This document shows positions 1-64,000 of a stretch of 64,000 nt of DNA, in pieces. Location of the stretch: contig CP084615.1 of the NCBI GenBank assembly GCA_025917655.1, positions 806,001-870,000 of the forward strand. The letters are read 5' to 3'. The notes beneath the pieces were generated by a model that did no database searches, was not told the origin of the DNA, and was given only the letters and a program-made list of their open reading frames with translations. A program made the translations under genes and the position numbers. The stretch comes from Chlorella sorokiniana (taxonomy: Eukaryota; Chlorophyta; Trebouxiophyceae; Chlorellales; Chlorellaceae). How positions within the stretch are numbered: position 1 is the stretch's first letter; each line of letters starts with the position of its first letter.

Positions 1-3000
1 GCGGCGGCGGCGGGCCAAGGCGCCAGGTACGTGTGTGTGCGTGTGTGTGTTTGTGTGTGTGTTTCGGGGGGGAAGAGGGGCCAGGGCAGGGCAGCCAACA
101 GAGCTGCCCCTTACTTGCTTCCTGTGCTTGTGAGCGTCTTGCCTGGGCTGGCCTGCGCCACCCACGCTACCCTGAACCCGCCGCTGGCAGCAGTGCACTT
201 CCCGCAGCAGCCTGCCTCTGCCGAACCGGCTCCGTTCAGCCGCCCGCCGCGCCGCGCCCCCGCCCGCAGGCCCGCTGTGGGAGGTCAGCGCTGAGCTGGC
301 CTGGCTGGGTGTGTCGCTGGTGGGTCCCGCCCGAGAGGTGGCCTACCTGCGTGCCGCCGGCCTGCGCGCGCGCCTGGCGGGCACCGCCGCACACCTGGCT
401 GCTGACCTGGAGCTGCGCCGCCTGCAGGCAAGCAGGAAGGGGAGGGTTAAGCGGTGTGGGGGTCTGGGATGCGGGGGGTGGGGTGGGGGTGGGGGTGGGG
501 GGGAGGGGGATGAAATCGTGGGGGCGAGCGCAAGGGGGTGGAAGGCCGGGGGGGGGTAGAAGCGGCAGGTAAAAGGGATGCGCGTGCTGTTTTGCCTGCG
601 TTCCTGGCAGGCTCCGTTGCCGCTTTCCACTTCGCGCCCTGCCCCGACGCTTGACAACCCCTCTTTGCACGGGGAGTCTGAGGCGCTTTTGTCTGCCGAG
701 CATGGAGTGTTGCCGCGTGGCCGACTGTTGGTTTCGCGCCGCCCCCGGCGCAGCTGGACAACCCGAGCCCCTGGGTGGCGCTGCCCGTCACGCTGCAAGC
801 CCCTGCCCCCACCTCCCGCCTCACCTCCACCGTGGCGGCGGCGGTGGACGCGCAGCGCGCGCGGCCCTCACCGCCCGCCTCGCGCTGTGGCAGCGCCGCC
901 CGCCGGCGTGGTGTGCCTGGAGGAAGCTGAGGTGCAGCTGGCCCCTGTGGCCGTATGCGTGGAGCAGCAGCACGCGCTCGCCCTGGCACACTTCCTCTCG
1001 GGCATGGCAGCGGGGCTGGCCGCGGCAACCGCCGCAGCGGCCGCAGCCGGCGGTGCGCCGGGTCCGACGTCGGCAGCGGAGCCCAGCGCTGCGGCGCGCC
1101 GCCCGGCGGCCTGCCGGGCCTGAGCCCCGAGGTCGGGCGCTGCTGAGCGGCCGCGGGGCCGCCCTGCTGGCGCCAGCGGAGCAAAAGGTGTACCTGGATG
1201 TGCTGCGCATCGCGCCGCTGGAGCTGGTCGTCACCTTCCTGCCCGCCCCCTTCCAGCCAGACCCGGGTGGGGCCTCGACGGGCTGCTTCCGCTTCCCTCT
1301 GGGCAGCGCTGCGTGCGAGCTGGCCGTGCAGGGGGCGCCGTGTGCGGCGCTCTCGGGCAGCAGCCAGGCCGTGCCCGGCTCCTTTCGCCTGCCGCGAGTC
1401 GCCGCCGTTGCCCCCACCCACACCTCCCTCCCCCTCCTGTGCATGCACGCACAATCACTCCTTCTCCCTGCCCCCTGCCTGCCCCCTGGCCGCCCGCAGG
1501 CCACCCGCGCCTGCTGGCCCTGCAGCGCGTGCTGTCGCTGGCCGATGTGGAGGACGCTCGGCTGCGCCTGGCGGCCCTGGAGCTGCGCTCGCCACTCATG
1601 GGGGCCTCCGCCCTGGCGCAGCTGCTGCAGGTGGGGCTGCAGGGCTGGGGGCGTGGGTGTCGGCGCTATGGGCAGCAGCCCTCGCCGCCTGCGGCGCCGC
1701 CATTGTCCCGGACCACCTGCCGCAACACTCGCTCCTCGCTCGTCGCCCCTGGAATGCGCCTGCCACCCTGGGGCCCCCTCCCATCATCCTCGCTTCCCAT
1801 CCACCCCACCCACCTTCTCCCATTCACCTCACCACAACCCCCACACGCTTTTCATGCGTTTTCAACCCCCTCCACACGCACACATACACCCACCGCCCCC
1901 ACCCACCCACCGCAGCGCCACTACTCCCGCGCCCTGCTGCCCGAGCTGGCCAAGCTGGTGGGGTCGGCCTCGCTGCTGGGCGACCCCGTGCGCCTGCTAC
2001 ACCACCTGGGCCTGGGGGTGTGGTCCCTGCTGGCCTCCCCCGCCGCGGGGCTGGTGCTCAGCGCGCGGCAGCGCGGGCCGGCGCAGTTCCTGGCAGGGCT
2101 GGCCTCGGGGTGCAGGGGCTGTTCCAGGTGGGCCGGCGGGCTGTGGGTGGGCTTTTGGTGGTTTAGGTGGGCTGGTGGGCTGTGGGTGGGCTTTTGGTGG
2201 TTTAGGTGGGCTGGTGGGCTGTGGGTGGGGGTGTGGGTTGGGGGGCTGACGCACCGTGTGTTGCGGGGGGGGAGAGGAGAGGGGAGGGAAAGGAGAGCGT
2301 TGCCGCCTTTTAGCGAAGGCGAGGGACCTGCGGCGCGGTTGGGTCCGGGCCTCGCGCCGCCTGCGCCGTGACAGTGCAGCGCGATGGTCGGGCCACCAGC
2401 GTGGGTTTATTCATCAAATGAAAGCTGACTGTGTAACCCCATCAGGGTGACAGTTGACACTATGACTCCCCCGTTCACCCCTCTGCCCCCCCGCTGCCGC
2501 TGCAGAACGTGGTGTTTGCGTTGTCCAATGCCGCCACCAAGGGCTCCACCGCCGCCCGCAAGGCCATCACTGCTCTGGGCCTGGACCGGCTTCAGCCACG
2601 GGAGGCGTGGGCCGCCGCGGGGGGACACCGTTGCGCCGCCGCCTGCGCTGGGAGACAGACGCGGGCATGGGGGCAGCAGCGGCAGCGGCGGAGGAGGAGG
2701 CCGGACGCCGCAGGCGGCAGCGACGGGCGGTGGCCCCGACTCTGGCGCGAGGGCAGTCCTGTTTTCGCCGCGCGATGGCGCCTCCGAGGACGGTCCTTCG
2801 TTCGGCGGCGGCAGCGGCGGCGTGCTGGGGGCGATGTTGATGGGGGTGGCGGGTCTGGCGGCGGAGCCCATTCGCGGCCTGGATGAGGGTGTGAGGGGGG
2901 GGCATGCTTATTTTGGCTGGGCACCTGTTGCCCTGCTTTTGCTGCCGCCAGACATGCCATGCTGGCAGCGGGTTTGTGAGGCAGAGGTCCTGGGATGCCA

Positions 3001-4072
3001 CTCTATGCCTCCGTGCCTGCAGCCCCAACCCTTGTGTGTGCCATCCCTGCTCTGCTGCCCTGTGCCTGCCCGCAGCCGGGCTGGTGGGCCTGCTGGCGGG
3101 CGTGAAGCGCGGCGCGGTGGGCGTGGTGGTGCTGCCGCTGGCGTCGCTGCTGGAGATGCTGGCCTCCACGGCTGACTCAGTCCGCCGCGCGGTGGCTGGC
3201 TCCTCAAACGTGGGCTGGGTGCGCCCGCCCCGCCCCGTCCACCCCACCCTGCCGCTGGAGCCCTACAGCTGGGGGCGGCCATGGGGCGCTGGCTGCTGGC
3301 CGAGCTGGAGGCGAGGGCGGCGGCGCGCCAGCGGGCGCGCAGCGGCGACGGCGCCCGGCCCCCGCCGCCCTCCCTGGGCGCGTTTGTGCTGTGCGTGCCG
3401 CTTGCGGAGCGCGGCTGCTACGCTGTGGTGACGACCAAGGTGCGCTGCGCAACCAACAGCGTGGCCGCGCCGTTCGCAGCCGCGGGGTGCTCCCGCGGCG
3501 CATAGCACCCCAGAGCGCTGCCCCACCGCTTGGCAAGCTTGCTTCGCGGCTGCCGCCCTTGTCCTGGTCTCGGGGCTGGCGGGTCTCGCAACCTCGCTGC
3601 AACCGCCTGATCCCGGCCCACCCTCACTCGCACCTCCCCCACCGCTGTGTGCCCGCAGCGAGTGCTGTACGCCTGCGCTCGCGAGCCCATGTGGGCGCCG
3701 TCGGTGCGCTGGAGCGCCGCCGTCGCCGACCTGGAGCTGGTGGCGGCGGCCGGCGCCCGCCTGGCCCTGGTGGCGCAGCAGCCGCAGCGGCGGCATGTCG
3801 TGCGCGGCGCGCAGGCGCTGCCCCGCGCGCTGGCGGACGTGCTGCGCGCGCGCGCCGCGCCCGCCTTCTCTCACCTGGCGGTGGACTGCGAGGGGGCCGC
3901 GGAGGCGGAGGCGCTGGTCGGCACGCTGCGCGCGCTGCGGGCACGCGTCCCGCCGCCCACCTACATCGGCGGCTGCCTGCTCCTGGCTGGGGCTGGGGGT
4001 AGGTGGCGGCCCCACCGGGAAACTCAAGACGAACAACGCACGACGCCAATCAGCGCACAAACTCAAACTTGA
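1..4072 (+). CDS. VPS13: VPS13-family lipid-transfer protein, C-terminal part (5' end outside window)
   Basis: VPS13 proteins are rod-shaped bridges that carry lipid between membranes at contact sites. Only the C-terminal part is here. Exons I can place: 1-26, 270-426, about 754-1370, 1500-1630, 1916-2127, 2506-2888, 3076-3439 and 3659-4072, ending at TGA 4070-4072. Family landmarks in order are KVYLDVLRIAPLELVVTF (near 1190), RHYSRALLPELAKLVGS then LLGDPVRLLHHLGLGVW (1916-2030), the glycine-rich repeats around GLVGLLAGVKRGAVGVV (3080), the VRPPR motif (3220), and a C-terminal PH-like module starting RVLYACAREPMW (3659). The reading frame breaks near 850-905, 1100-1145, 2107-2110, in the 2620s and at 3271-3275. 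The breaks at 2107-2110 and 3271-3275 are one G short in a G run, and adding it restores SGVQGLFQ and YSWGAAMGRWLL. Donor 427 is GC rather than GT. The VPS13 assignment is firm; which paralog it is cannot be told. Confidence 0.9.
2136..2229 (+). repeat. 39-bp minisatellite in a VPS13 intron
   Basis: Two full copies and about 16 bases of a third copy of a 39-base unit (starts at 2136, 2175 and 2214) are arranged head to tail. The second and third copies begin GTGGGCTGTGGGTGGGCTTT; the first differs from them by one base in the first eight. The array lies directly after the splice donor at 2128 and is strongly G/T-rich on the coding strand. It is intronic, with no sign of coding. Confidence 0.9.
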
Positions 4073-4487: not shown

Positions 4488-7400
4488 ATGGCTCACAACC
4501 CACCTTTGAATCAGGCGGAGGGTCGCCCCTTCCTTCAACGCTCCGTGAGTATGCGGCACGCCTCCGAGGAGCACGACCCTGCCGCATGGCTCGCGGCATC
4601 CAGACGCGAGTTTGGCGAGCACGGGGGCGTGAACGCAGGCGCGTAGCTGTTGTTAGCCCAGCCTCGTTGCGCGCGTTAACTCAAACCTCGCCTTTCCCCT
4701 CTACCCTTGCTTTTGCAGGCATTGAAGTCTCCACCACATTCACAGGTGGGTCAAGTAGTACGATGCCGGGGGCTGCCGACACTCAACGGGCAGGCCCCGG
4801 CGGGAGCCTGCGCGGCACTGCTGACCTTCCTGGCTGTGCCTCCATCCGCTGAGCTGCCTGTGGGACTGGGACCCTGGTCAACAAGCTAATAACTTGCAAA
4901 CATCTCCTTGCTACGAGCTGCAGTGCTGCATGCCGACACACTGCCCCAAATTTTTGAGGGCAAGAAGGGCCCCAGCGGCGGCTGCTACTTGTGAGCACCC
5001 TGCATGACCAATATCAGGAGCACTGGCTGCTGCTGCGGCTGGGCCACCGCAACTACATGCCATCCCTGTGCGCCCTTGCCTCGCAGATACGGCCGCAGCT
5101 TCAACCCTACTGTGAGAAATTTGGGGCGCCAGCTGGCCGCGCTGGAGGGCGCCGCCGCCGCCTACTGCTGCGCCTCGGGCATGGCCGCCGTGTCGGCCAC
5201 GCTGCTGGCGCTGTGCTCCGCCGGCGACCACATTGTGTGCAGCAACGCCGTGTACGGCGGCACCTTTGCGCTGCTCAAGGCAAGGCAAACCCGGCAGCGC
5301 TTTGCTGCGTGGTGGCTGCAGGCCAAGCGGGGCCACCCTGGCTGCACGCTGCGTGCTGCTCAGGCCGCCCATGCATCCCCCCTCCCCCGCCCCCACACCC
5401 ACAAACACACCTTCAGGACTTCTTGCCCTCCAAGTGCGGCATCACCACCACCTTTGTGCCCATCGACGACCACGAGGCAGTAGTGGCGGCGGTCACCCCC
5501 GCACCCGCGCCATCTACACCGAATCGCTGAGCAACCCCACGCTGGTTGTGGCCGACATCCCCGCCTGGCACAGATTGCACACGCCGCGGTGAGGCCCTCG
5601 CTCCCTGTGAGCCCGCTTCTGCGTTGCGTTTCCGCGATCGCGCCTTGGGCTGGAGGGGGCGGGAAGGGGATTGGCTGTTTGAGGCAGCGACTAGCGGTGC
5701 CCAACTGCTCCTTTCCTCTTGCACCATCATGCACAGTTGCGGCTGGTCGTGGTGTGTGCGCCATGCCACCCACATGCCGCCACCACCACCCCACTCCCCC
5801 TTTCCTCGCTGCGAACACGCACGCCCTGCCCTTTAGAGCGAGCGACTGTGTCTTTCATGCTGCTTGTGCTGTCCGCAGGGGGTTAAGCTGGTGGTGGACA
5901 ACACATTCACGCCGCTCATCCTGTCACCGCTGCGGTACGCTTTGCGCCCCTGCTGCAGCCTCTGCCGCCGCCAGCACATCGCCGCTGCCAAGGCCCCTCC
6001 TAGCACATGCAGTGCCCCTGGTGGAGGGCACCAGCCCTGTTCTGCCTTTGGCTTGTTTGCAGGCTGGGCGCCGACATCGTGGTGCACTCGCTGACCAAGT
6101 TCATATCGGGGCCTCAGGTTGGGGGCCGGGGGCGGGCTGGGTGGATGGAGCGAAAGGACCATGCATGGGGTCAACTCGCGGCGCCTCAGTGCCAAGCTGT
6201 CCAACTGGACCCCCCTCCCCCCCGTGTGTTCCTCCCAGACATCATTGCGGGCGCTGTGTGTGCTGCGGAGGGCGCCTTCATCAACGCTCTCATGGACCTG
6301 CACACCGGGCCCCTCATGCTGCTGGGTGCGCTGCGCACGCTACGCTGTGCACGCTGGGGTCACCGCCGCTGCAGTTCTCAAAAGCGAGGGCGCGGGATGA
6401 AACGGGAATGAAAAGGGGGCCGTGCTGTGCCGCGCAGGGCCCACCATGGACCCCAAGGTGGCCTCCGAGCTCTCCCTGCGAATACCCCACCTGCCGCTGC
6501 GCATGCGCGAGCACAGCGCCCGTGCCCGCCACTTTGCCACCGGCCTGCAAGCGCTGGGCGCGCGCGTGTCCTACCCAGGCCTCCCCTCCCACCCCCAGCA
6601 CGCCCTGCTGCGCCGCCTGGCCAACCCGGGTGCGCTGCCCGCTGTGCGCCGGCGTGCCATCCTTGCCGCTGCGCGGGGCCTGGCATCCAGCCTCTCCGCC
6701 CCGCACGCCAGCCCGCCGTTCTGTTCAGCCCCCGCCTGCCTGCTTCCCGCACTGGCTCTGTGGCATCACGCGATTCCTTCCTCCCGCGCCTCAGGCGGCC
6801 TGCGAGTGCCTCATTGATCCCCCACCCCCACCCCCACCCACCCACACACCTCCCAGTTTGTCGTCTTCTACCACGCCTCAACCCCCTCCCCCAAAACACC
6901 CGCCCCCAGGTTACGGCAGCGGCGGCATGCTGACTCTGGAGCTGGGCTCGCTGGACGCCGCCAAGTGCTTCATGGAGCGCCTGCAGAACAAGCATAGCTT
7001 CGGTGGGCTGCCCGCTGCTCCGTGTTTGTGCGCCCGCCGGGGGCGGGAGCCGCGCCGCGCCTGCCCTGCTCCCCTGGACCCATCCCCTCCATCGGCCCCC
7101 GCTGCTCCTGTCACCCAGCCCCCGCTTGCATTGCCGCCCGCGCTTCCAAACTGTTCGCTGCTGCCTCCTCCCTCATCCCCTGCTCCTCCCAGCCTGCCTG
7201 CGCCCAGCCAGGATTGTTGTTGTGCCCCCGCAGGCCTGTTGGCCGTGTCTCTCGGCTATTTCGACACGCTGATGAGCGCCTCCGCCGCGTCCACCTCCTC
7301 CGAGCTGACGCCGGCCGAGCTGGCGGCGGCGGGCATCGGCTCGGGCCTGGTGCGCCTGTCGGTGGGGCTCACCGGCTCGCTGGAGCAGCGCTGGGCGCAG

Positions 7401-8155
7401 CTGGAGGAGGCGTACCGCCACGTGGCGACAGTACCGCGGGGGCCAAGCCCGGGTATAAGGCGGTACAGGTGCGGGCTGCGACTGGGCAGCGACTGGTGAC
7501 TTGCCGGCGCGGGCAGGCTGGTGTGTGCACGCAGCAGCCGCCCGCCGGCCACCCCCTGCCTGCACTCTTGCCCTTCGATGCGCCCCCGCTGCTCAGCCTC
7601 GTGCCTCTGGCCGCCTGCTGCCCCCTCACCCCCCGCGCAGGTGACCCGTGACGCGGCCACCGGCGAGCTGAAGCGCACCCCCAGCTGGCACTCCTTTGGC
7701 TCCCTGGACACTGCGGCGAGCGACGGCGACGAGGTGGACGGCGCAGCCCTGGTGGGCACCCCGCGCAACTGGGCGCGCTCCACCGAAAGCCGACGGCAGC
7801 GCTGCGCACCACCCTTTCCTCCCCAGCCCTCCTGCTGCCGCTCGGGCGCCTGCCGCCACAGTTTGTTTGCTTTGGGCTGCCAGCCAGCACAAAGCTCCTC
7901 CTGCCGACCATCCCCCTCTCCGCCCCGGCGCAGAGCGGTGCCGCGGCCGCCACTGCTGCTGGTCCCCCCGTCAAGGTGCGGCGCCTCAGCACCGGCACCG
8001 AAGTCATTTACACGCGGGTGGTGCACGCGCCTGTGGAGCCGGCGGGCCAGGATGCCATCGCCAGCCTGGACTCTCAGCCGCCCTCCTCTCAGGGCTCTGA
8101 GCGCGAGGCGGCCGCGGTGGAGGTGGAGGCGGCCGCTGCGGCGGCGCTGCCTTGA
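4488..8155 (+). CDS. MGL: Methionine gamma-lyase (Cys/Met-metabolism PLP enzyme) with C-terminal extension
   Basis: This enzyme splits methionine to methanethiol, 2-oxobutyrate and ammonia using pyridoxal phosphate. Exons: 4488-4638, 4719-4745, 4924-4990, 5087-5279, 5417-5588, 5879-5934, 6063-6117, 6239-6325, 6438-6629, 6910-7002, 7234-7468, 7641 to about 7800, and about 7935-8155. The start MAHNPPLNQAEGR precedes the plant MGL motif EFGEHGGVN. Further marks are YGRSFNPTV (cofactor phosphate site), VVDNTFTP, the Schiff-base lysine in HSLTKFISG, LMLLGPTMDPKVA, and STSSELTPAEL with GLVRLSVGLTGSLEQRW at the end. Four one-base frame breaks (5501-5506, 5564, 6108-6111, 7438-7442) vanish if one base is added at each, and all exon phases through 7468 then agree. 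Introns after 4638 and 5279 start with GC. About 130-150 residues after the family's usual end are low-complexity and have no recognised domain. The N terminus has no clear transit peptide. Confidence 0.93.
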
Positions 8156-10247: not shown

Positions 10248-11594
10248 ATGCTGCTAACGGTGTTGTCGAACTTCTTGCTCGCATGGGGATTTTGGGAGGT
10301 CGCGAGGGCAAACGCCCGTTTTGTGGGCTGCCGCGGCGCCAGCCCGCCTAGTTTATGCTTGCCTGGATTCACGGTGCTCTTCTTGGGAGTAGTGCTGCTG
10401 GAGCTGGGCTGCTGGGCGGATGGCCTGATGGCGGCGCCGCGCGTCGCCGTCTGCTTGGTTGCCCTCTTCCTGCTGGGCCAGCAGCTGTACCACGTGTGGA
10501 TCTCTGGGCAGGAGCTGTCCGACTACCTGGAGGCCGAGCTGGTCCACGTGCTGCCCGTCCCGCTGGTGCTCAGCGCCGCCGCTTGCGCCCTGCTGCCCGA
10601 CGGCCTGCCCACCATCCTGCGCGTCTTCACCCCCACCACCTCCTCGCACACCTGGCCCTTCACCCTGGCGTTTGCCGCCCTGACCGGAGCAGCCCTGAAA
10701 TGGTACATCGGAGGCGGGGGCAAGCAGGACTTCAACGCGCTCTTGCAGGCAAGCACTCGAATTGAGAGGGCACTGCCCTCTCAATGCAGCGGCACGCATG
10801 CATGCCCCGCGGCGCTCGCCTGCAGCCTTCATCCTTCTGCGCGGTCCACCCTGCAGGGACGGCTGCTGCCACTTGCCGCCGCCCACCCCGTTGCGTTGCC
10901 CTTCCTGGCGGTGGCGAATGCCTGGGTGGAGGGTGAGGCGGGGCTGCCATGCAATGAGCATGTGCCGCCCGTGGTCTGATGCTCAACTTCAGCGGCCCAA
11001 AGCAAGCTTTGTTCTTCCACATCAAGCCTTAGGATGTTATCAGACAGGGTGCACTCCTCTCTCACACACCCCCCTTCCTCCTGCAGAGCTCGAGTTCCGG
11101 GCCCTGCTGCAGACCGGCCTTGCCTCCATGGCAGGGCTGCCCCCGGCTCGGCTCCCCAGGGCGGCGAGGCCTGGCTGCAGATGCTGACCGTCATCGCCGC
11201 CACCAGCGGACTGTTCACCCTGCAGCACATGGCGGCGGGGTTCCCGCGGGCGCTGGCTCCAGCCTGCCTGACCTTTGCCTGGGGCGCGGGGCTGGGCCTG
11301 CTGCAGTGCCTGTCGGGCGGCTGGCTGCAGCCCTTCGTGGTCCACCTGACGGCGGACGCCACGCTGGCGCTGGCGGCGCTCAGCGAGGAGCGGCGGCGCC
11401 GCGGCAAGGAGCAGCCCGAGGGGCTGGAGGACGAGGAGTCCGATGTGCTGGCGCCGCTGCTGAACGCGCTGAGCGGCAGCAACCCTTACGGCGTTCGCCG
11501 CGGCCGCAAGGGTGCGTCGCCACCGCGCTGCACCCCGCCGGAAGGCGGTCAGCAGGTCACCCCTCAAGAGATGGTCAGCGTGCTGGTGTGCTGA
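10248..11594 (+). CDS. CPBP (CAAX/Abi-type) intramembrane metalloprotease
   Basis: CPBP proteins are multi-pass membrane proteases of the Rce1/Abi group; plant members act in plastid or ER membranes. Exons are 10248-10748, 10857-10932 and 11087-11594. With one missing C restored in the run 11154-11157 they give 361 codons. The first exon encodes several hydrophobic segments starting MLLTVLSNFLLAWGFW. The three family motifs are all present: EExxxR as EELEFR, formed exactly across the exon 2/3 junction; FxxxH as FTLQH; and HxxxD as HLTAD. The first intron uses a GC donor (gcaagc). After the last membrane segment comes a soluble tail of about 75 residues rich in Glu and Arg, then Pro/Gly. Whether it cuts CAAX substrates or is a plastid-type member cannot be decided; no clear transit peptide precedes the first ATG. 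Confidence 0.85.
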
Positions 11595-12067: not shown

Positions 12068-19921
<7,854 letters not shown>

Positions 19922-22678: not shown

Positions 22679-22699
22679 ACATTCTAGCTGAAGCGAAAT

Positions 22700-22788: not shown

Positions 22789-24498
22789 TCACACCTGCCA
22801 GCCCCGCCGCTGGCAATGCACCGCCGCCAGCGCCGCCATGTAGTCGCCGCTCTGCTGGCCGTAGGCGGTGCGCACCGCCTGGCGTATGCAGGGAGGGTGC
22901 AGAGGGGAAAGCACGTCAGTCAGTCGTTTGTGTGCGCTTCTCCGCACATTTGCCGGCCAGCAGCACAGGCTGGAGCGGCCGGCCAGGTCATGCTACAGGT
23001 GCTGCGCCTCGCTGGGCTCTGCTGCCACAGCAATCGCAGCAGCAGTGCATGGTGCGCGCGAGCCGCAGCCCCTCCCCACCTCAACGATGGCTCCCTGCGC
23101 TGCCGCCGCCTCGTCCTGCGCCTCATGCCACAGGCCCACGTAGAGGCGGGCGTAAAACGCGTCGTGGCCCTGCGCGTCGCCGCCAGCCGCCGCCAGGATG
23201 GCGGCAGGCGCCGCCCCGTGCGGAAACACTCCTCTGCCGCCCGCATCACGCGGCGGCTGTCACGGCCCACCTGCAGTGGCGCAAGGAAAGGGCATCCTGG
23301 TGGCAAGGCAGACGGGGTGTGGGGGTGGGGGGCAGCAGCAGTGGCGGCGGGGCAGGCGGGCGCGGATGGTGGCGACGCTGCCAGCTGGCCTGTGGGGTGC
23401 CGCTCACGGGGCCAGCCCACGGCAGCAGGCATGCTGGGAGAGGACAGCGCACTGCGCTCGTCTCGTGCGTGCTGCTGCTGTAACTGCGCCCTGCAGCATG
23501 CCCCTGCCCTGCGCCTCTGACAGGAACTGGCAGCAAACACTTGCTACAGGAACACACACACGCACACACACACACACCCCCCCCACCCCACGGCCCCTCC
23601 CTCCCACGCACCCACACACAAGCGCACACAGGAAAGACTTGCCTGCAGGAACTGGCGGCGCGCCTCTTCGGGGCCCACCAGCTGCGCCTCACACAGGAAC
23701 GCCCAGATGGCCTCCTGCAGCAACGGAGGGGCAGGCGCAGCACCCGGCGCGCAGCAGCGCACGCTCAGCAGCAGCAGCTGCAGGCAGCAACCTCCTGCCA
23801 CGCTCGTGCTAGGGCTGCCATCAATCCTTCTTGCTGGCAGGAGGGAGGGGAGTTAAGGTCCCAGACACAGGTGCGGCAGGCGCACCGGCTCCGGTAGGCA
23901 CCGTTTGCAGGCACAGACGGCTGCGCTTGCCGCATGCACCCACACTAACAGCGCACCTCTGTGTCGTTTGGGTTGACGGCGACGTCGTCCCGGAACTGGC
24001 GGGCGCCCTCCTCAAAGCGCTGCAGGTAGTAGAGGGACAGCCCCCGCTGCCAGAGGTACGGCCGTACCGCAGGTCGCGCCGCCAGCGCCGCATCAAAGTC
24101 CTCCAGGGACCCCTCCACGTCGTTGCGCCGGAACTTGTCCATGCCGGAGCGCACAAGGCGGTTGGGGTCGGCCGACGCCGCGCCGGCCGCCATGGCGGCG
24201 CCACCCAGGGCCCCCGCAGCAAGCAAGCCGCCCGCCAGGGCCAGCCCACCGCCCGCACCAGCTAGCAGCACCCGCCTGTGGGTGAATGGCATGAAAGGTG
24301 GGAGTGGCAGGAAGACAGTGCGACCACAACAGCAGGTATAGCGAAATGCGGCGGCTCTGGGGAGGCGCACCTGCCAGGCTGCGACAGTCCGGCTGCTGGA
24401 GCCTTAGCGACCCCTGATCGCGCTTTCTGCCTATCAGCTGTGCTCTGCTTTGCAGCTTGGCGATGCAGCGGTGCAGAAGAGACTCGCAAACTCTGCAT
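22789..24498 (-). CDS. TPR-repeat protein predicted for the thylakoid lumen
   Basis: The protein resembles a conserved plant and algal plastid family of TPR-like proteins of unknown job. Exon 1 (24498-24371) encodes a transit peptide beginning MQSLRVSSAPLHRQAAKQ. Exon 2 (24275-23957) continues it, and the splice creates a twin arginine in PGRRVLLAGAGGGLALAG, followed by a hydrophobic stretch and an AxA site (ASA-DPNR). This is the layout of a Tat signal for the thylakoid lumen. Then come DKFRRNDVEGSLEDFDAAL and YLWQRGLSLYYLQRFEEGA (TPR helices), EAIWAFLCEAQLVGPEEARR (exon near 23724-23653, followed by a GC donor), an exon with DSRRVMRAAEECFRTG, and a last exon ending MAALAAVHCQRRGWQV at the stop 22789. 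A G run on the coding strand (plus 23214-23217) is one base short. The TPR family is sure, lumen location likely, function unknown. Confidence 0.85.
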
Positions 24499-27162: not shown

Positions 27163-27200
<38 letters not shown>

Positions 27201-34300: not shown

Positions 34301-35815
34301 CCGCCTGGCAGGCGCGGCCCGGCGTGCTGGCGACCAAGCTGGCGCTGCTGGAGGGGCAGGGACAGGCTGATGCGGCGGCGGCGACGCTCAGCGAGGCGCT
34401 CCAACAATGGCTGTCGGGTGGGTGCGCCTAGGCACGCGCTGCTGTGCACGCTGCGCTGCTGCCCCGAGGTGCCAGGGCTACAACTGGCGCGTCCGTGTCC
34501 GTCCGCTCTGCAGCCCCCGACTCGCCGCAGCGAGCGGGCGCGGTGAGCTGGATCTTGAAGCAGCTGGCGGCGCTGCGCTTGCGCCTCGGCGAGCTCGATA
34601 CTGCGGCCGAGCACTATGCGCAGCTGGTGGCGGCGGATCCAGAGGCGCTCTCAGGTGGGCGCACATTCCCACGATCCACAATCATTGAACACCCACGGCG
34701 GTTTGGACGGTGAAGGGTTACAGCGCTTCTGGCACACGTCGGCTGCTTAGCGAGGTGTTGGGAGCGTGACGGAGCCAGCGCCACCCCTCCCTGGCTGTCC
34801 ACTGGCTGTGATGCGACCCCCACCCGCGACCCCCACCCCCCACCCACAACATTCCTCGCCTCACCCCACGCTGCATCCACCCACAGACCCCGAGGTGCTC
34901 TCCAAGTACTCCCAGCTGGCGGCGGTGTGCGCCCCAGAGCAGGCAGCCAAGCTGCAGCAGCGGCTGGGCGCGGCGGGGGCCAAGCTGTCGGCCGCCGAGG
35001 TGGATGCACTGGAGAGCTCCAGCATAGGTGGGGGCTGCAGCCGCCGGGATGGGCGGCGGTGCGTGTGCAGGCAGCACTCGACTGATGCACTGTGTGCAAG
35101 GCCTTTGCCCTTTCCGGCGTTGAGCAGCTTGCCCGCCTGCTCACCCGCATGCCTTTCCCTGCTCCGCAGCCATCACCGGGCTGCGCACGGGCGTGGATGC
35201 AGCGGTGCCGGGCGCAGCGGCGGCGCAGGATGCAGCGGCGGCGGCGGAGCGAAAGAAGCGCAAGCGCAAGCGCAAGACGCGGTATCCCAAGGGGTGAGCC
35301 GGGGGGGCGGCGCTGCTGGCACGCGGTTGCAGAGAGGCCTGAGTCGGGCGTGGCACGGGCTGGTCAGCCGGCCAGCTGTTGATTTCTTGCTCTTCGCCCC
35401 TTTCATGTTTGCTGCTCCTGCTGTCCCTGGCCGCAGCTTCGACCCCGCCAACCCAGGCCCGCCCCCGACCCCGAGCGCTGGCTGCCCAAGTGGCAGCGCT
35501 CGGACGCCAAGAAGCTGCGCAAGAAGCTGAAGGGCAAGGACGCGGGCAAGGGGAGCCAGGGCGCGGGCAAGGCAGACGAGTCGCTGGACAGGAGCAACGT
35601 CAAGGGTGGGTGGGGTGATGGGCTGCGAAGGCAAGATGGTCCCCAGGCTCAGGGACGAGCGCCTGGCTTGCTCTGCCGTGCATCAGCCGATAGTGTGTGA
35701 ACATTCACGGGTCTGAGCGTCTCCGATGCTGCATGCAGACGAGCCAGAGAGCAAGCCCAAGGCACCCGCGCGGCCGGCGGGAGGCAAGGGCAAGAAGGGC
35801 AAGGGCCGGCGTTGA
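31356..35815 (+). CDS. SRP72: Signal recognition particle subunit SRP72
   Basis: SRP72 binds SRP68 and the 7S RNA in the particle that brings nascent secretory chains to the ER. About fourteen short exons run from ATG 31356 (exon 1 31356-31443, MAEHEALFARLDTAVKNGQT) to TGA 35813-35815. The body is TPR solenoid: LLPGDEDALRCKAVLLIEAG, AYCLYRLGRLQEALAALSG, IQYRLGDCKAAISLYSELF, DSFEIAYNAACGLVEAGQLP, LAPVTAQLAYVNEAMGRDDE, NNLYAQLLRTAAASNSRR and AALRLRLGELDTAAEHYAQL. The C-terminal RNA-binding part shows KKRKRKRKTRYPKG, FDPANPGPP and DPERWLPKWQRSDAKKLRKK, the diagnostic SRP72 motif. It then ends in a Lys/Gly/Pro-rich tail. Two frame breaks, a G run at 32170-32173 and a C run at 35462-35466, each need one more base. 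The second lies inside the diagnostic motif. Confidence 0.95.
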
Positions 35816-35876: not shown

Positions 35877-38800
35877 TCAGCAGCCATGCCACTCTTGCAT
35901 CGTAGCAGCAAGTTTGTAAAGAGTTGAGCTGCGAGCAAGGGCTGGAGTTGCGCACACTGGGTCACAGCTCGGCCGCTGCGGCATGGCGCGTGGCGCCCAC
36001 CAGGCTTGGGCCCCGGGCGCGTGCCTCCCGATCCACTTGGCGATGTAGCGTTCCTCCAGGGCGCGTGCCTCCTTCACCGAGGGCGGGTCCAGGGGTGGCT
36101 GAACATGAGGTCCAGATGGTGGGCGCCTGGGGGTGGTGTGGTGGGGGGGGGAGGCGAGAAGGGGGGCATGCGGGTGGATGGATGGTGATTGGCGTATGTA
36201 AGGAGGGACGCGGTCTATGCCCAAAGGTACTGGCGGGGGCGGGCCGGAACAAGTGGATCCCTCGCTGGGGGCATCAGCGCTGGGGGCTGATGCCATCGCC
36301 ACTGCCATTGCCAACAGAGCAATGTGGCACGCGCCAGAGGTGTGCTTCGCTACGGCTGCAGCCCTCCTTCAGAGCTGCAGCATCTGCGCTGCGTCACGCC
36401 ACACCACCCACCCACCCTCTGGTATGATGACGGCCACCAGGTCCCGAGCCTGCGACACGTTGGCCAGCACGCCGCCGCCGCTCCAAGGGTCCAGCAGGCC
36501 GTTGGAGAACACAATGTTGCTGGCGCCGTCCAGGCGCTTGCCGCCCCACTGCGGGGCCGGGGGCGACACCAGGAGCGGGTGGGTGGCAGGCTGAAGGGTT
36601 GAGGGCGGGGGTCGAGCGCACACGGAGGCGGCAACATTGGGGGGGGGCTTGCACGCAGCTGCGTCGCCCACACCGGTGCCCTCTCCCCCTCTTCCTTGCC
36701 TCGATGGTGGCCCACAGGGGCCGCGGCTCCACCCCCCACTCCTCCTTGCACGCCTCCACCGCGGCCTTGGTGCTGAACCGCTCCTCCCAGAACCTGCAGC
36801 CAGCGGCGGCAAACTCGCTGAGCGGGCGGCATAGCCGCATGTGAAGCCCACGCACGTGAGGAGGGTTGAGGGGTTGGGGGCGGCAGTGCTGCGCAATGCA
36901 CTTCAGCATCCCAGCGGCCCCTCCCGGCCAACACATCCGTGTGTCGACATCCGTTTCGGTGGGAGCATCGCAACGCTTTATTGTGCAGCAGGCTCACATG
37001 TCGCGCGTGCCGTCCTTGCTGAAGGGCTGGAACTGCTCGGTGCAGTACTGGAAGCCCCAGAAGTCGGCGTCCTCGTCTGGCGGGGAGCGGTGGTGGTGGG
37101 GGTGGTGGGAAGGGGGAGGAAGGAAAGGTGGGGTTAGGTCACGACTATAGTTGGAAGAGGCGTATGGGAAGCTTTGGGGTTCCTGCAGGTGTTCAAACGA
37201 CAGGCAGCGGCGGCACGGCTCTGCATGCACTGTGCTGATGGCTCTCCCGGGGGCAGGCGCTAAGCCCAGCTCAGTCCGGCGGCGGCCCCACCTGTCTCTG
37301 GGTCGGGGCCCTGCTGCTTGAACGAGAAGCAGTCCAGGTCGTTGGTGTGGTTGTAAAACACGCCCACCGCGGCGGCCAGCCCCTGCAGCAGCGCCTGCCC
37401 CTCCAGCCCCGGCTGCGCCAGGTGCTCGCAGGCGGCGCGGACCGGGAAGGCGGGCAGGGGGCTGGGCCCCGTTTACAATGTAGGAAGAGGGGTAGGGGTA
37501 GCTGCAGGGGGCGAGTGGGTGCGGGGTTTTGTGGGTGTGGGTGTGTTGCGTGGCCACAAGTGGGTGGGGTGCATGGAAGCCGGCGAGCGCGTGCCCATGG
37601 CAGGCAGGAAAGAGCCTAGCAGCAGAGTTGGCACGCACGCGAGGCTGAACACCGTGTGTCAAGCCCGCCAGCCTGGGCCCTGCCAAACACCCGCTGCCCC
37701 CCCACACGCACGCGCGCTGCTGCCCGGCACTCACTTGCCCATTGCCAGGTAGTCCCAGGCCGAGGCGGCCCAGTCGCGCAGCGCATACGCATCACCCTCG
37801 CTCTCCACCGCGCTGTCGGGCACAGGCGCATGGCGGCGCCCAGCGCTGCCCGCCCCTCCTCTGCGGCAGCGCGGAGCGGCGAGGGGCGCAGCAGCACACG
37901 CCGAAGGATCGAGCAGGAGCGGCGGCCGCGAGCTGTGCATTGCAGCAGCGGGTAGCAGCACCACGCACAACACCCTGCGCTCCCGAATAACCCCTCACCC
38001 GTCCTGCCCAGGCGCAGCAGCTCGGGCCAGGCGCTGCGCACGTTGTCGGCGCAGGCGGGGCGGCGCCACCCTCGGGCGAGGCGTCCTGGGTCACAATGGC
38101 GGCGAAGCTGCCCGGGTCGTACGGCGGGTCCTGCGTGGCAGGAACGCAAAGGAACATAACCTTTTCGCATGGCGGCAGCCGATGCCTTGCTGCAGATGTG
38201 ACCCGGCCCGGCAACAAGACAGAAGGACGCCAGCCGGTAGCAGCAGCCCTTCCAGTCGCTGAACGCACCTCGCCCTTGTACGTCCAGATGGGGGCTGCAC
38301 CCAGCATGCACAGGGGCGGAACGGCCGTGCAGTGAGGACGCGCGTGGAGGCAGCACCACGCAAGGAGGGGCAGCAAAAACAAAGCACGGGCAAACAGCGC
38401 GGCGGCTGGCGCTACAAGGCCCCGGTGCGGCGCGAGTGCGGCAGAGGGGGCGCACCCGACCCCGCAATCATGCCGTCCATGAGGTGAGGGTACTTCATGC
38501 GGAACCAGGTGCCCAGCATGCCGCCGTAGCTCCTGCGGGGGTCCGGGGGAGCCAGAGGAAGGGTGCTGGGCGCTACACCTGCTGCATGCACCTGCGCAGG
38601 ACCGGCCGCAGCATGGTCTGCCTTTCCCGCACTCTGCACAAGAACCGCCATAGCACGCCTGGCTGGCTGTCCACGCATAGGAAGAAACAACTGAGCTGTG
38701 CCAGGTGAGAGGCAGCCTGCGTGTGTTCACCCGCCAAAGCCGATGACTGGCACACTTGGGTCCCCTAGCTCCTCCTTCAGCTCCCACAGCAGCGTGGCGT

Positions 38801-52311: not shown

Positions 52312-57079
<4,768 letters not shown>

Positions 57080-57594: not shown

Positions 57595-59986
57595 CTACTC
57601 GTCTGCCAGGTTGAGCATCTCAAAGGGGTTGTCCACCCTGGTCTTCGGGGCCTCCTCCTCGCTCAGCGCAGCCCTTGGCCCGCAGGTGCTCCGCCACCGC
57701 TCCCGACACCTTGCTCTCGCCCTGGCAGGGTGGGACAGAGTGTGTGTGTGTGTGTGGGGGGCTCAGCTGCCCCGCAAGGTGGCGATGGGCACGTTGGAAC
57801 GCGAGGGCGACAGCGGCGAGGAAGTCAAGCCATGCCACGCCAACAATACGTGCGCCGCGCACCTTGGCAGCAGGCCTGTCGTTGGAGGTCTTGCTGCCGC
57901 CGCGGCCGCCTTCCGAGCGCCCGCGGGCGCGCCCGCCGTGCTCGCCGCCGCGGCCGCCGCGGCCGCCACGCCCGCCATGCGTCTCGGGGCCTCCTCGCCC
58001 GGCCGCGCCCGCTGTGCGGCTCGGTGGTGCCCTCCCGCGCCCGCGGCCGCCCCGCCCGCGCCCGCCCTCGCCACGCCCAGCGCCGCGCCCGGTTGGCGGG
58101 CCGCCACCGCGTGCCTGGCCGCCACGGCCTCGCCCGCTGCCGCCGTCCTGTGCCCCGCCGCCCACCGTTGGCACCGGCACCAGCACAACTGGTTTAGCGG
58201 CGGCGGGGGCGGCGGCGGCCCACGCGCTGGCGCGGCTCCCGCCCGGCGGTGGCGGCGCCGCACGGGGCGACGCAGCTGCCGGCTCTTTCTCCTTCCTCCT
58301 TCTCCTTCTCTCCCGCCGCAGCCGCCGCCTCCTTCTCCAGCTTGCGCGCCGCCGCCTCCTCCGCTGCCCGCGCCCTCTGCCGCTCTTCCAGTTCACGCAG
58401 CTTGGCAGCGGTGTCTGCGGGCTTGGCATCCCCAAACGGGTTGCTGCGGGGCTGCGCGGCGGCTGTGGCTCCCGAGCCGCCGCCGCCCTCCCCCGCCTGG
58501 CTGCGCGGCTGGAGGTTGAGGCGCGGCCGCCGCGAGGGCTCAGCGGGGCGTCTCCTGCGGCAGCGACGGGCCATGCCGGCTGTCAGCACTCGGCAGGCCA
58601 GCTGGGGGCTGCTGCGCGTGCCCAGCCCTGCTCCTCCGTCGAGGCTGTGTGGTCAGCAAGCAGCTGAAGCAGCCGAAGCAGCCAAAGCAGCACTGTTGAG
58701 AGAGTGCCAAATCAGCGGCGCACCTGGGGCGGCCCACGCCGCGAGGGCCAGTCGCGTTCCCGCTCCCCCAAAGCCGTAGCCCCCCTCTCCCGCTCCCCGT
58801 AGCCGCCGCGGTCGCGGTCGCCAAAGCCGCCGCGCCGCCCGTACCCCCTCGTCCTCGCGCCGCCCAAACCCGCCCCTGGCGGCGGCAAGGCGCAGGCAGC
58901 AGAGCAAAGAGGTCAGGGGCGGCCAGCGGCGCAGATCAGCAGCGTGGGGCGTGCAGAGGCGGAGCCGCAGCAAACTTCAAGCAGCTTTGCAGGTGCGCGC
59001 GTGATTGGGCAGCGGCCGGCGCCGCTCACCGTCGCTCTGCAAAGCCGTCGCGGCGCGGCGGCTCCGCCACCTGGACGCGCAGCGGGCGGCGCAGCATGGG
59101 CTCGCCGTCGAGCGTCAGCGCCTTGGCAAGGTCATCCTGCAGCGGGGGTGCAGGGTGGGAGCAAGAGTTCGGCCGCGTGCTAGCCTTACATAACAGGGTG
59201 GAGGGCGGCAGGCAGGAGCACAGGGCATCCCCGGCCCCTGCTGAGGCCCAGCTTCAAGCCACAGAAGGAGCGCCGCCCCACCTGGCTGCCAAACTCCACA
59301 AAGCAGCCCTTGGGCTTGCCCGTGTCGCGGTGGCGGGTGATGATGACGTCCCGAACCTGCACCCAGTTTCAACGAGTGAACAAGGCATGGCTGTTATGGC
59401 CTTCGCGATGGCTGCGCGCTGGTCCAAACAGCGGCACAAGGGCCCTGGGGCAGCTGCCAATGCGGAGACACGTGCGGTGCGCTTTCAGGCCGCTTTAGCG
59501 GCGGCACAGCTCAGGCAGTCCAAGGCGCCCCTCTCACGTCCAGCCCGCGAAAGTGGTGGGCCACAACATCCTCAGTGAGCTCGTAGGGGATGTTGCCCAG
59601 GTAAACCTTGAAGGGTGGCTGCTCGGGCAGGGGCGGCCCCGCAGGGAACGGCGGCGGCCCGCCGTAGCCGCCGCCGCCGTAAGGCCCCCGCTCCTCGGGA
59701 GGCGGGTAGGGCCCCCGAGGCGACCGCGATGGTGGGGTGCCTGGATGAGGTCCCCGCGGGGAGGCCACGACTTGCAGGCTCTCCACTGCAGATGCATACA
59801 GAGGTGGCGTCGGTGGGCAACGGCCAGCCTGTGCAACCTCAAATCACTTCATACTTGTACCAGAGTAATAAGGACCGCCCTATCCACCGCCATGCTTCGG
59901 CTCGGACGATCAAAGTATAACAAGAGCTTACCCCTCTGCATCTCGGCCTCCTCCTCCTCGACATCATCAGCCCACGTTGTACTCAT
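57595..59986 (-). CDS. Translation initiation factor eIF4B with an RRM domain
   Basis: eIF4B helps eIF4A unwind mRNA 5' leaders. ATG 59986 opens MSTTWADDVEEEEAEMQR. The second exon (59785-59538) is Gly/Pro-rich and enters an RRM: FKVYLGNIPYELTEDVVAHH (RNP2), then VRDVIITRHRDTGKPKGCFV with EFG (RNP1, exon 59356-59282) and DDLAKALTLDGEPMLRRPLR with VQVAEPPRR. Downstream sits the eIF4B signature RPRLNLQPRS followed by NPFGDAKPADTAAKLRELEE, then a charged Lys/Glu helix. A long Arg/Gly-rich stretch (58190-57880) follows, and the end TRVDNPFEMLNLADE with TAG at 57595-57597. A G run on the coding strand (plus 57672-57674) lacks one base just before that end. The RGG region may bind RNA. Exon limits between 59100 and 58300 are uncertain because of frame breaks. 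Confidence 0.88.
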
Positions 59987-60860
59987 GGTTTGAGAGCGGC
60001 TGAACGCCATAGTGCGGCTGGCGGAAGAGGCCTGTCTGTTCCAACCTTGCGAGCTGTTGCTGCTCGTAGGAAGTTACAATCCAAAGATCTATGCATGTAT
60101 CTTGTCGAGATGGTGCCCATCAAGGGCATTCACGTGCGTTTTGGCCGGTCCAGCAGGGCGCCTGAGCCAGCATGGTGTCGCCAAGGCGCTGGGCCAGATG
60201 AGGCAGATTCATGTGTGTCTGATGATAGTTTCTTTGGCTCGAAGCGCGATGTCGAATTTTGCAAGGCATGATAGACGGGCCATGGCAAAGATACACGCTA
60301 AGGGGAGGACTGAACCAGCCGCAGCGCCCGACCGGCGTCCTTCCCAAAAGCCCTAATGGGTAATGCAAGCCCCATGCCCTGGCTTGAACATCCAGTGGAT
60401 GACAAGCAGAGAAGTGAACAGGAAAGGCAGAGGGGCGGCAACACTTGCAAATGACAGCATCTGAAGCACAGGCTCGGGGCCCCGGCATCCCCGTCTGCCT
60501 GCATAGTCCTGTTTGGCTGCAGCATGAACTTATCACCATTGATTTGTGAACTGCATGGATCTCTGCTTGCCATGCACGCAGACACGAAGGGTTTGAGCGG
60601 CGTGGTAAGGCTCTGGTCATGCGCCTGCCAGCAAAGCAGGGAAGTGCAGTGGCAATGGCGTTCCCCGCTTGTCGGGGGCGCTCCGTGGGTTTCCATTCAG
60701 TTCAAGAAGGTGCTAGACCTAGTGCGCGCTGTTTAATACGTTGTTGCCCCTTCCACCAGCAGGTTGGGCTCCTGCGTGGGCCGCCCTTGTGGCGGACACC
60801 GGGCATCATCGCGTGCAGCACCCGAAATCGGAGCACTAGCAGCGCAGTGAAGTAGCCAAA
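59987..60860. promoter_or_regulatory. Divergent promoter region, eIF4B / GAF-PAS kinase
   Basis: This 874-base region separates two diverging start codons and is the largest gene-free stretch. It is noticeably poorer in GC than the coding parts. Short open frames are present on both strands but none has a splice partner or family motif. Confidence 0.5.
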
Positions 60861-63800
60861 ATGGGCGCTTGCCTGACCAAACCCATTGTGAGTGCTCGCG
60901 CTTCGTGCCTGACTCAAGGCTTGCCGCCTAGACTGGTATTTTTCGGAACCCTCTTTAAACGCGCTCACGGGCCATATGCAGGGCGACGCCCCGCATGAGG
61001 CGCGGCCACCGCCGCAGGGAAAGCTCGTCGCTGGCACCGACATCGCTCCCACGAGCGCTGCGGTTGCAGCTCCAGCACAGCCGCCTCCCAACGGCAAGCA
61101 CTTGGAGGTACACGACGTGCCAAAGGCCATGGAGTCACCAGACGAGGAGGGGCGTCGGCGGGCCGTGCGTGCGCTCCAGCTCATTGGCGTGCCGCCGCAG
61201 CCCCAGTTTGAATCCATCACGGCCCTCATGAAGCAAATGTTCGAGACGCCTGTGGCGGCTGTGACCCTGATAGATGAAGAACTGCACTTCATCTCGAGAG
61301 CTGGCGACTGGGCTTGCAGCGCAGGCCGGCCAGGTGCGAGGGGGAGCGCATGCGCAGCGGCAAGGGGCCTGCTCGAGCTCCTGCAGGGTCAGCCACAGCC
61401 CTCCTCCTGGCCTGTTGTGTTCCTGTCTGTGGCATGAAACCTGTGCCGTGGTTGCGGCACGCCTCACATTTCGCTCAATCGCCGCAAGCCGAAGCAGCAT
61501 TTCCTCAGCCAGCAGTGAGCCTCGAGGAGCGAAGGCTGCCCCCAGCCCCGCCCTGCAGAGCCCCAGGCCGCTTGCTCAGGCCGCTTGCTCCCCGCCCGCA
61601 GGCTCCTTCTGCGACTGGATCCTGGTGCCGGAGACGCCCCAGATGCTCATTGTCGAGAACGCCCTGGAAGATGTCAGGTGCTGCGCCGCCGCCTGCACGC
61701 TTGTGCGGCCACGCCTGCCTCCTCGCCGGCCTCCCCCTCACCCACAGCCAACCCCCCCTCCTCCGCGCGCATCTCCGGCTGCAGGTTCAGGAGCAACAAG
61801 TTTGTGGTGGACGACCCGCGCATACGCTTCTATGCCGGCGCCCGCTCGTCTCCTCCTACCGAGAGGGGCACCGCTACGGTGAGCGCCGGCAGCGGCATGC
61901 AGTGCGGCAGCCGCGCGCGCGCCATTCTCGGCGGGGGCTGGCCAGCTGCGGCCAGCCTGCCGCAGTGTCACGTGCACCTGCCAAACACCTCGTCGTCTGC
62001 AATCCTTTGGGCATGCTGCAATCCTTTGGGCATGCTGCAACGCTTTGGGCATGCTGCAACGCTTTGGGCATGCTGCTGTGCAGGCACTCTGTGCGTGTTT
62101 GATTTCAAGCCCCGCCGCTTTGATGCCTCCAAGTATGCGATGCTGGTGAGGCACTAGAGGGGCCTGGTGCAGTCGCTGCCGCGTGAGCGCATGCTGCGGC
62201 TCTGCACCCTGGGCGCCCAGCCTGTGCCCCCGCCCCTATGCCCTCCCACCCCACCGGCCCGGCCACGTGGCCCTGCCCTTCCATCCCGCTGTCCCCCCGC
62301 CCCCGCGCCTGCCTGCCCCCAGGCCCACTTTGCCGAGATCGTGGTGCGGGAGATGGAGCGGGAGCTGGTGATGATGCTGCAGCAGCGGGAGGCGGGGCGG
62401 GTGCGCACCGCGGAGAGCCACCTCGTGCGCGCCATGGACGCCTTCCACGGTGCGCCAGCCCCTCACCCTGCGTGCCGCTGTGTGCCGCTCGCGCGCGTGT
62501 GCACGTCTTTGCACGCCTTGTTGCCGCCGGCTATGGCCTGCTGGCGGCCGGAGGCTGCGTGTGTGTGTTGTTTGATGGCCAGGAAAGGCTGCGCATGGCA
62601 CAGGGCGCGTGCCCGCTCACCCTGGCCCTGCACTCCACCTGGGGCCTCAGCTTGTGCTCAGGCACCCTGGTGCATGGCTGCCTGTGGGCCTGCACCAACC
62701 CACCCGCCACCCCGCCCATGCACACCCTGGCGCAACCCACAGAGGGCATCTTGCTGCTTGACTTGCGCGCCGCCTCGTGGCAAGTGCTCTACGCAAACGA
62801 CTCGTTCCGCGCCGCCACGGGCCTGCCGCACCTGCTGGCGCCAGGCCGACAGGAAGACGGCAAACCCGTCGACTTCTGGCAGCTGTTTGCCCACGCCTCC
62901 GCCGGAAGCGGTGGATCGTACAACGTGTGTGCTGGGGAGGGGGAGGGCTGCGCGCGTGTGGGCGGTAACGTCGCATTGTGGGAGGAGGGGTGTTGGCTGC
63001 TGGCGAGCGACGCTTGGCCTGCACTTGGCCTGTCTGTGTGCACTGACTGGCATGCCGCATGCCCCATCCCATCCCACGCAGGCCGCACTTGTAGCCATGG
63101 CCACGGGCCGCGACTTCACGCTGCGCGTGCGGCTGGCGGCCACGAGCGGCGGCGACGGTGGCAGCACCAGCAGCAGACGGCGAGGCAGACGGCGCGGCAG
63201 GCGGCGCGGCCGGCGGCGCGGCCGGCGGCATCTTTGACCTCCTGTTCCGGCCGGCCGACACGGGGCAGCTGCGCACGGGCATGCCGCACATCGGCGTGCC
63301 TGCGTTTGTTGACGAGGGGGAGCAGCATGGGGAGGCGGGGGAGGAGGGCGGCGACGACGGCGTCAGCGCCACACGAGACATGGTGACCGCCACTTTCGGG
63401 CCCTCGCCCTCCAAGTCGGGCCGCACCCCCGTCTACTACTTCGCCCTGGTCAAGGGGCGGGGCCAGCCTGGCTCTTCCGTGTCAGAGGCTGCCCAGTCGG
63501 CCGGTGCCACGCCGGCCGCCACGCTGGACCCTGCGGCGCCCTCCACCGCTCTGGGCTCTGAAGCGGTGGGCTTGCAGCGCCTGCGTGGCCTCCCTGCTCT
63601 CGCCGCCTGCCTGCCTGTGCCACTGCGCTGCCTGCACCTGCGGCCTCCATGCCCCCGCTTCCCCTCCCATCTCCCCGCACACACACCACCACACACACAC
63701 ACCGCCCACCCCACCCCTGCCTCCTGCCTGGCGCAGAACGTGAGCGAGGCCGGCGCTCAGCTGAGCGGCGCCGCCCAGCTTCTGCCCAGCTTCATCGCCA

Positions 63801-64000
63801 TGCGGCCCGAGGTGATGGAGGAGGTGCACCTGGGCCCCCTCATAGGCACCGGCTCCATGGGGCGCTGCTACCGCGGCATGTGGCAGGTGGGCGGCAGGCG
63901 CGGCAGCTGCTGCCGTCTGGGAGCCACCTGGGGTGGTGGCCTGCCACCAGGCCTGTCAGCGCAGGGGCCAGGTGCTGCGGCATGTGGCTGCGCCTGCCAC
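60861..64000 (+). CDS. GAF-PAS protein kinase, lipid-anchored N-terminus (3' end outside window)
   Basis: Exon 1 (60861-60887) codes MGACLTKPI, a likely myristoylation (Gly2) and palmitoylation (Cys4) signal. Exons 60982-61333, 61602-61677 and 61785 onward build a GAF domain: ALQLIGVPPQPQFESITALM, VAAVTLIDEELHFISRAGDW, SFCDWILVPETPQMLIVENA, FVVDDPRIRFYAGAP and TLCVFDFKPRRFD. A coiled linker (IVVREMERELVMMLQQREAG) leads to a PAS fold with EGILLLDLRAASWQVLYAND. After low-complexity loops (63140-63240, 63320-63580) the kinase domain begins with a glycine loop, LGPLIGTGSMGRCYRGMWQ (near 63825), and is cut by the window end. A C run at 61841-61843 is one base short within the GAF domain. The layout fits tyrosine-kinase-like MAP3K-type sensors common in green algae. 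The ligand of the GAF and PAS domains is unknown; conserved Cys or His for heme or bilin is not evident. Confidence 0.9.
61999..62074 (+). repeat. Four-copy 19-bp tandem repeat in a kinase-gene intron
   Basis: Four head-to-tail copies of GCAATCCTTTGGGCATGCT (copies 1 and 2) and GCAACGCTTTGGGCATGCT (copies 3 and 4) occupy 61999-62074, ending about ten bases before the splice acceptor. The paired variants suggest a duplication of a two-copy array or local conversion. Confidence 0.95.

Follow-up and report, generated by a model that had tools for sequence, protein, structure and literature searches.

Many conserved exons in the Chlorella sorokiniana assembly analysed here look broken, and these breaks are very probably residual consensus error of long reads, that is, bases lost from the assembly rather than biology. 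The window, a stretch of 64 kb, is part of a green-algal assembly of 38.8 Mb in 15 contigs, one of which is a plastid contig of 117.8 kb. Several observations point in this direction: breaks are biased towards losses and associated with G/C runs, G/C runs pile up at a length of 5, nuclear contigs and the plastid are both affected, highly conserved genes are involved, and single histone copies are broken. They support the preliminary description of the window, which had proposed consensus error of uncorrected long reads.

Outside the window, the genes studied were 13 conserved ones and 17 for histones; they were aligned by an intron-aware method that allows GT/GC-AG introns in all phases. Aligned codons with masked bases were left out, and 4 of 25 candidate breaks were dropped for a gain below 10 half-bits. 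Over the 7,479 codons aligned, 21 breaks have support, a rate of 0.94 per kb. All of them shorten the sequence (18 by one base, three by two) and none is a gain; such an outcome, 21 short versus 0 long, has a P of about 1e-6 under equal odds. One-base losses, as claimed before, thus account for 18 of the 21 breaks but not for the remaining three. The count of 21 includes a break in plastid atpB, which is excluded from the 20 nuclear breaks used for the G/C-run context, and it leaves out plastid rbcL and psbA as well as a break in a kinase domain.

Breaks are present in 11 of the 13 conserved genes (atpB included), in 2 of the 17 histone genes and, in addition, in plastid rbcL. Highly conserved genes are affected, such as those of histones, tubulins, HSP70, GroEL and calmodulin. 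With respect to histones, one of eight H4 genes and one of nine H3 genes are broken; in both, about 60 compared bases match the sister copies save for one missing base, the copies being too diverged for indel counting beyond these short stretches. The broken H4 copy is at about 1,579,753 on contig C11 and the broken H3 copy at about 1,517,063 on the same contig. The plastid genes atpB and rbcL are both broken, with alignment gains of 56 and 64, respectively; the site in rbcL is at about 30,978 on contig C15. Consensus error is favoured because the losses extend over contigs sampled outside the window, over highly conserved genes and over atpB and rbcL, and because single copies among near-identical histone genes are affected.

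The same breaks could be taken for real mutations, the genes carrying them being pseudogenes or decaying copies. The broken frames themselves, and the 2 of 17 histone genes broken beside intact sister copies, would fit such decay. However, the broken genes keep their exons and a high protein identity, which ranges from 43 to 97% with respect to reference proteins (for instance, 76% in HSP70, 86% in alpha-tubulin, 87% in calmodulin and 97% in H3 and H4). The identity of the broken plastid genes is 89% for rbcL and 71% for atpB, and the loss of both would be difficult to reconcile with a photosynthetic alga. Real decay should also bring gains and in-frame stops, but none of the 21 breaks is a gain. 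Neither relaxed conservation nor gains and losses in like measure, the marks of pseudogenes, were found. Pseudogenisation is therefore highly unlikely, as had already been suggested for the window, where mass pseudogenisation was disfavoured.

The sequence context of the breaks agrees in part with a tie to homopolymers. A G/C run of at least 4 lies within 5 bases of 9 of the 20 nuclear breaks, whereas 8.7% of positions drawn at random from exons are so placed (P = 2e-5). The preliminary description had put the losses usually in G or C runs, but 7 of the 20 have no nearby G/C run longer than 2, which counts against consensus error. The three two-base losses, which affect both beta-tubulins and BiP, all occur at Pro-Arg-Gly codons in a stretch of alternating C and G. 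A fixed octamer was considered as the cause of these two-base losses and rejected: it occurs 48 times where 40.1 would be expected, which is no depletion, and two examples are intact in aligned exons.

Programmed ribosomal frameshifting takes place at short runs of bases, where the ribosome changes its reading frame, and the frame changes of the alga are also found at short runs. If the losses were truly in the DNA, this process or RNA editing would have to restore the frame. The Pro-Arg-Gly context common to three two-base losses in unrelated genes, and the one break common to both beta-tubulins, could be read in this way. Nevertheless, most breaks have no site in common in the sequence contexts compared, and no slippery site shared and conserved in related genes was seen. 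Neither the three GroEL genes nor the histone copies have their breaks in common; many unrelated genes are involved, in the nucleus and in the plastid alike. Moreover, a mechanism acting on mRNA leaves the region-wide pile-up of run lengths unexplained. Restoration of the frame by frameshifting or editing is accordingly extremely improbable, in line with the earlier judgement that it was far less likely than error. The same very slight chance is given to an alga that carries true losses in nucleus and plastid, restored in RNA or at the ribosome, with a recurrent Pro-Arg-Gly context.

Consensus error is also favoured because G/C runs accumulate at 5 and fall at 6, as run-length compression predicts. 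Counted over 264 kb, the G/C runs with lengths 4, 5, 6, 7 and 8 number 2,163, 1,025, 123, 29 and 24, respectively. The ratios for the steps from 4 to 5, 5 to 6 and 6 to 7 are 2.1, 8.3 and 4.2, whereas about 3.3 is expected from dinucleotide content; A/T runs in the same 264 kb show no comparable step. Runs of five outnumber G/C runs of at least 6 in all 20 sampled loci, and among hexamers with at least 30 expected occurrences the strongest depletion is that of CCCCCC. A bacterial control, Thermomicrobium, also drops steeply from 5 to 6 (ratio 5.9), its proportion of fives to six-or-more being 5.9 versus 5.3 in the alga. Since Thermomicrobium falls at 6 without a pile-up at 5, it is the pile-up, not the fall alone, that is telling. 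The other bacterial control, Variovorax, gave irregular run lengths with small counts. Two observations count against consensus error: runs of 8 nearly match runs of 7 in the alga, and in telomere arrays the result is mixed, G runs being mostly short (49 versus 5) and T runs mostly long (51 versus 7). Taken together, losses exceed gains, are tied to homopolymers, are accompanied by truncated run lengths and occur independently of gene and compartment, the pattern expected of consensus error.

Within the window, sites were tested with Pfam profile scores, comparing joined with separate frames, and with alignment gain in half-bits (own threshold 10). The claim that small losses interrupt conserved exons was borne out at part of the 15 sites proposed, 5 being well supported and 5 weakly, but one shows the opposite frame change. 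A series of sites lies in MGL (Cys_Met_Meta_PP, plus strand). Separate frame pieces match PF01053 with 89.0, 16.8 and 52.7 bits at profile positions 46-136, 138-157 and 160-202, compared with 206.2 bits when read through. The break at 5501-5506, beside a run of 5 C, is well supported by this joining, although its alignment gain against solved MGL is 7 half-bits, below the threshold. A second break at 5564, near C runs and within the joined PF01053 match, is well supported too, with a gain of 18-22 half-bits against the same protein. Support is weak for a third at 6108-6111 (run of 4 G), where the gain is only 2-4 and the joined PF01053 match continues beyond the site. The break proposed in the C-terminal exon at 7438-7442 (run of 5 G) lies past the end of the aligned homology.

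In MCM8 (plus strand), the break in the ATP-binding loop exon at 54147-54151 is well supported, with a gain of 17-20 against solved MCM8. The S28 peptidase exon (minus strand, 36092-36106) is also well supported, near a run of 4, with a gain of 21 against solved PRCP; the alignment puts the break at 36106, about 11-14 bases from the 36092-36095 proposed before. A further well-supported site is the VPS13 C-terminal exon (plus strand, 3271-3275, run of 5 G), in which VPS13_C reaches 21.8 bits when joined (cut-off 21), single frames being without a match at E <= 1. At least two breaks in the window had been missed earlier. One is in MCM8 at about 54500-54518 (plus strand, run of 4 G; gain 19-22). 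The other is in the zf-C5HC2 domain of the JmjC protein at about 13708-13727 (minus strand), where pieces in different frames cover profile positions 1-16 and 22-47, and joining gives 46.9 bits over 1-53 versus 18.6 and 14.3 for the pieces. Support for the zf-C5HC2 site at 13625-13628 (minus strand, run of 4) is weak because most of this joined gain is owed to the second break.

Other weak sites are the CPBP/Rce1-like exon (plus strand, 11154-11157, run of 4 C), with 21.0 bits joined versus 17.3, both below the cut-off of 22.4, and two in SRP72 (plus strand). At 32170-32173 (TPR-like exon, run of 4 G), SRP_TPR_like scores 21.8 joined versus 19.5, but ANAPC3 gives the reverse, 20.5 joined versus 23.4. 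At 35462-35466 (RNA-binding domain, run of 5 C), PF08492 scores 25.1 joined versus 22.2, with a cut-off of 25. The eIF4B-like exon (minus strand, 57672-57674) has a frame change of +1, which means one base extra or two too few and not a one-base loss; it has no Pfam match when joined. Rfam and tRNA scans of the 64-kb window returned no matches.

Three of the 15 proposed sites have no Pfam match at E <= 1, joined or not: the VPS13-like exon at 2107-2110 (plus strand, run of 4 G), where the frame change was seen by eye, the TPR-like exon at 23214-23217 (minus strand, run of 4) and the GAF-like exon of a kinase at 61841-61843 (plus strand, run of 3 C). Such sites raise the question of whether introns or diverged exons have been misread, by the earlier reader and by the alignment, as breaks. 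The genes are rich in introns (as many as 10 were called), a false one appeared in one of the two bacterial controls, and the four candidates dropped for low gain point the same way. Against this, the alignment permits introns in every phase, and the histone and plastid breaks sit in genes aligned without introns. Besides, the same method left actin, nuclear ATP synthase beta, psbA, 15 of the 17 histone genes and both bacterial controls without a break. Misreading has therefore very little probability.

The consensus error very probably arises in the following way. Run lengths, chiefly those of G/C runs of at least 4, are underestimated at the signal or consensus step, and an occasional base is dropped elsewhere as well, which shortens exons by one or two bases and shifts their frame. 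Given that the breaks are error, the platform was probably of nanopore type, and the assembly presumably lacks effective polishing. Among the results of PMC8486125 are that nanopore errors are chiefly deletions and that homopolymer reading is reliable up to 5 bases, or 4 at high GC. The alga resembles this profile in that deletions prevail, runs above about 4-5 are underestimated and GC-rich DNA fares worse; the measurements described there concern reads, whereas here only the consensus is seen and some losses lie outside homopolymers. One of the points made in the Kastor study (PMC12007338) is that such indels yield frameshifted pseudogenes in long-read assemblies, deletions being commonest after runs of 4-5. 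False frameshifted genes of this kind are also what the alga presents, although the genomes described there are bacterial with mostly A/T runs, and here a GC-rich alga has mostly G/C runs.

The breaks would thus not be a real biological feature, and their significance is practical only. Frame-breaking losses occur about once per kb of coding sequence; at a uniform rate, tens of thousands would be present over 38.8 Mb. With losses this frequent, gene models, counts of pseudogenes and protein searches are unreliable until the assembly is polished. The G/C pile-up at 5 together with the collapse at 6 offers a fast quality check that does not require reads. Contiguity is no guide to quality: telomere repeats fill more than 60% of the last 300 bases at 22 of the 26 ends of contigs C1-C13, yet base-level accuracy is poor.

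The preliminary description had listed 15 one-base losses in conserved exons of the window. Fourteen of these breaks in reading frame were tested by Pfam searches with the frame pieces versus the read-through protein, by a custom-written, intron- and frameshift-aware alignment program, or by the printed frames; the other site, MGL 7438, lies beyond the homology. The list stands in part: five sites are well supported (two in MGL and one each in MCM8, S28 and VPS13) and five weakly (MGL 6108, CPBP, JmjC 13625 and two in SRP72). These tests gave no call either way at VPS13 2107, TPR and GAF (3 of 15), and at eIF4B 57672 (1 of 15) the frame change is +1, not the loss of one base that had been proposed. 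MGL is the clearest case: PF01053 matches the joined protein with 206.2 bits versus 89.0, 16.8 and 52.7 bits for the pieces in their own frames, which cover profile positions 46-136, 138-157 and 160-202, respectively. Unlisted breaks are also present in the window, one in a zf-C5HC2 domain (46.9 bits joined versus 18.6 and 14.3) and another in MCM8 (alignment gain of 19-22 half-bits). Elsewhere on the window's own contig, at C5:1514000-1514508, two kinase-domain matches lie in different frames with a 28-base overlap and continuous profile positions; judged by sequence, this domain likely holds a further break.

Outside the window, reference proteins were aligned to 13 conserved genes (plastid atpB included) and 17 histone genes, and a break was accepted if the alignment containing it scored at least 10 half-bits above the best one in which no break was allowed at that place. 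This threshold was passed by 21 of the 25 breaks proposed in 7,479 aligned codons, a rate of 0.94 per kb (95% range 0.58-1.43). All 21 are losses, of one base (18) or two bases (3), and none is a gain of a base. The same method found no break in actin or nuclear ATP synthase beta, nor in psbA or two high-GC bacterial MGL relatives; in one of these two relatives a false intron was called. Plastid rbcL showed one break (gain 64), which was kept out of the 21. Two nuclear fragments similar to rbcL (82% and 73%) occur at C8:363962-364274, in two frames with an 8-base overlap, and their sequence suggests that plastid DNA may have inserted into the nuclear genome here.

Selection holds the H3 and H4 proteins nearly fixed. 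One of eight H4 genes and one of nine H3 genes are broken, and the approximately 60 bases printed around each break equal the intact sister copies except for the missing base; over longer stretches, histone copies diverge by a few percent. Pseudogenisation of these copies is a poor match, since exactly one base is missing in each.

Among the 20 nuclear breaks, the longest G/C run no more than 5 bases away was of 2 (n = 7), 3 (n = 4), 4 (n = 4), 5 (n = 3) or 6 (n = 2) bases. Only 8.7% of random exon positions have a G/C run of at least 4 nearby (P = 2e-5 versus breaks). Thus, homopolymers are a good explanation for about half of the breaks and no explanation for some. All three two-base losses (the beta-tubulins tubB1 and tubB2, and BiP) are located at Pro-Arg-Gly codons where C and G alternate, a context weakly shared by window positions 54408-54428 in MCM8 (gain only 2). 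A fixed octamer was rejected as their cause, since the suspected octamer shows no depletion.

According to one study (PMC8486125), homopolymer counts in genomes drop exponentially, deletions make up most nanopore errors, and nanopore reads homopolymers well up to length 5, with the limit at 4 when GC is high. In 264 kb (the window plus 20 sampled loci), G/C runs of 3, 4, 5, 6 and 7 number 7,134, 2,163, 1,025, 123 and 29, giving step ratios of 3.3, 2.1, 8.3 and 4.2 where dinucleotide content predicts about 3.3, that is, an excess of fives and a shortage of sixes. Fives outnumber runs of at least 6 in 20/20 sampled loci, and no hexamer with at least 30 expected occurrences is more depleted than CCCCCC. 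A/T runs in the same 264 kb show no comparable step. The bacterial Thermomicrobium control (150 kb, 66% GC; step ratios 3.8, 4.5 and 5.9 from 3 to 6) falls steeply at 6 but without a pile-up at 5; run lengths in the second bacterial control, Variovorax (50 kb), are irregular, with small counts. In the window and sampled loci, G/C runs of 8 (n = 24) almost match runs of 7 in number, so long runs would be only partly compressed.

The breaks are almost certainly best explained by long-read consensus error, most likely nanopore-type and under-corrected. This cause had already been proposed, and it is supported by the loss bias, the run association and the pile-up at 5, as well as by breaks in both nucleus and plastid and by single broken copies, all of which are observed; the sequencing platform and processing behind the errors we infer. 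Awkward for a simple account are the two-base losses at Pro-Arg-Gly, the similar numbers of runs of 8 and 7, and the long T runs of the telomeres.

The assembly comprises 38.8 Mb in 15 contigs, with a nuclear GC of 66% (20 sampled 10 kb loci pooled). The window corresponds to C5:806001-870000 of this assembly. The plastid is contig C15 (117,793 bases), which carries atpB, rbcL and psbA and has 32-36% GC in the loci read. We judge the organism to be a green alga capable of photosynthesis that resembles Chlorella in size and GC. Contigs C1-C13 have 26 ends; at 22 of these, plant-type TTTAGGG repeats make up over 60% of the terminal 300 bases, and the survey found no arrays at two (L056 and L064). 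The units counted were TTTAGGG (686), TTTTAGGG (51), TTTAGG (49), TTAGGG (7) and TTTAGGGG (5). G runs are mostly short (49 versus 5 long) and T runs mostly long (51 versus 7 short), a pattern that may reflect natural variation or a different error.
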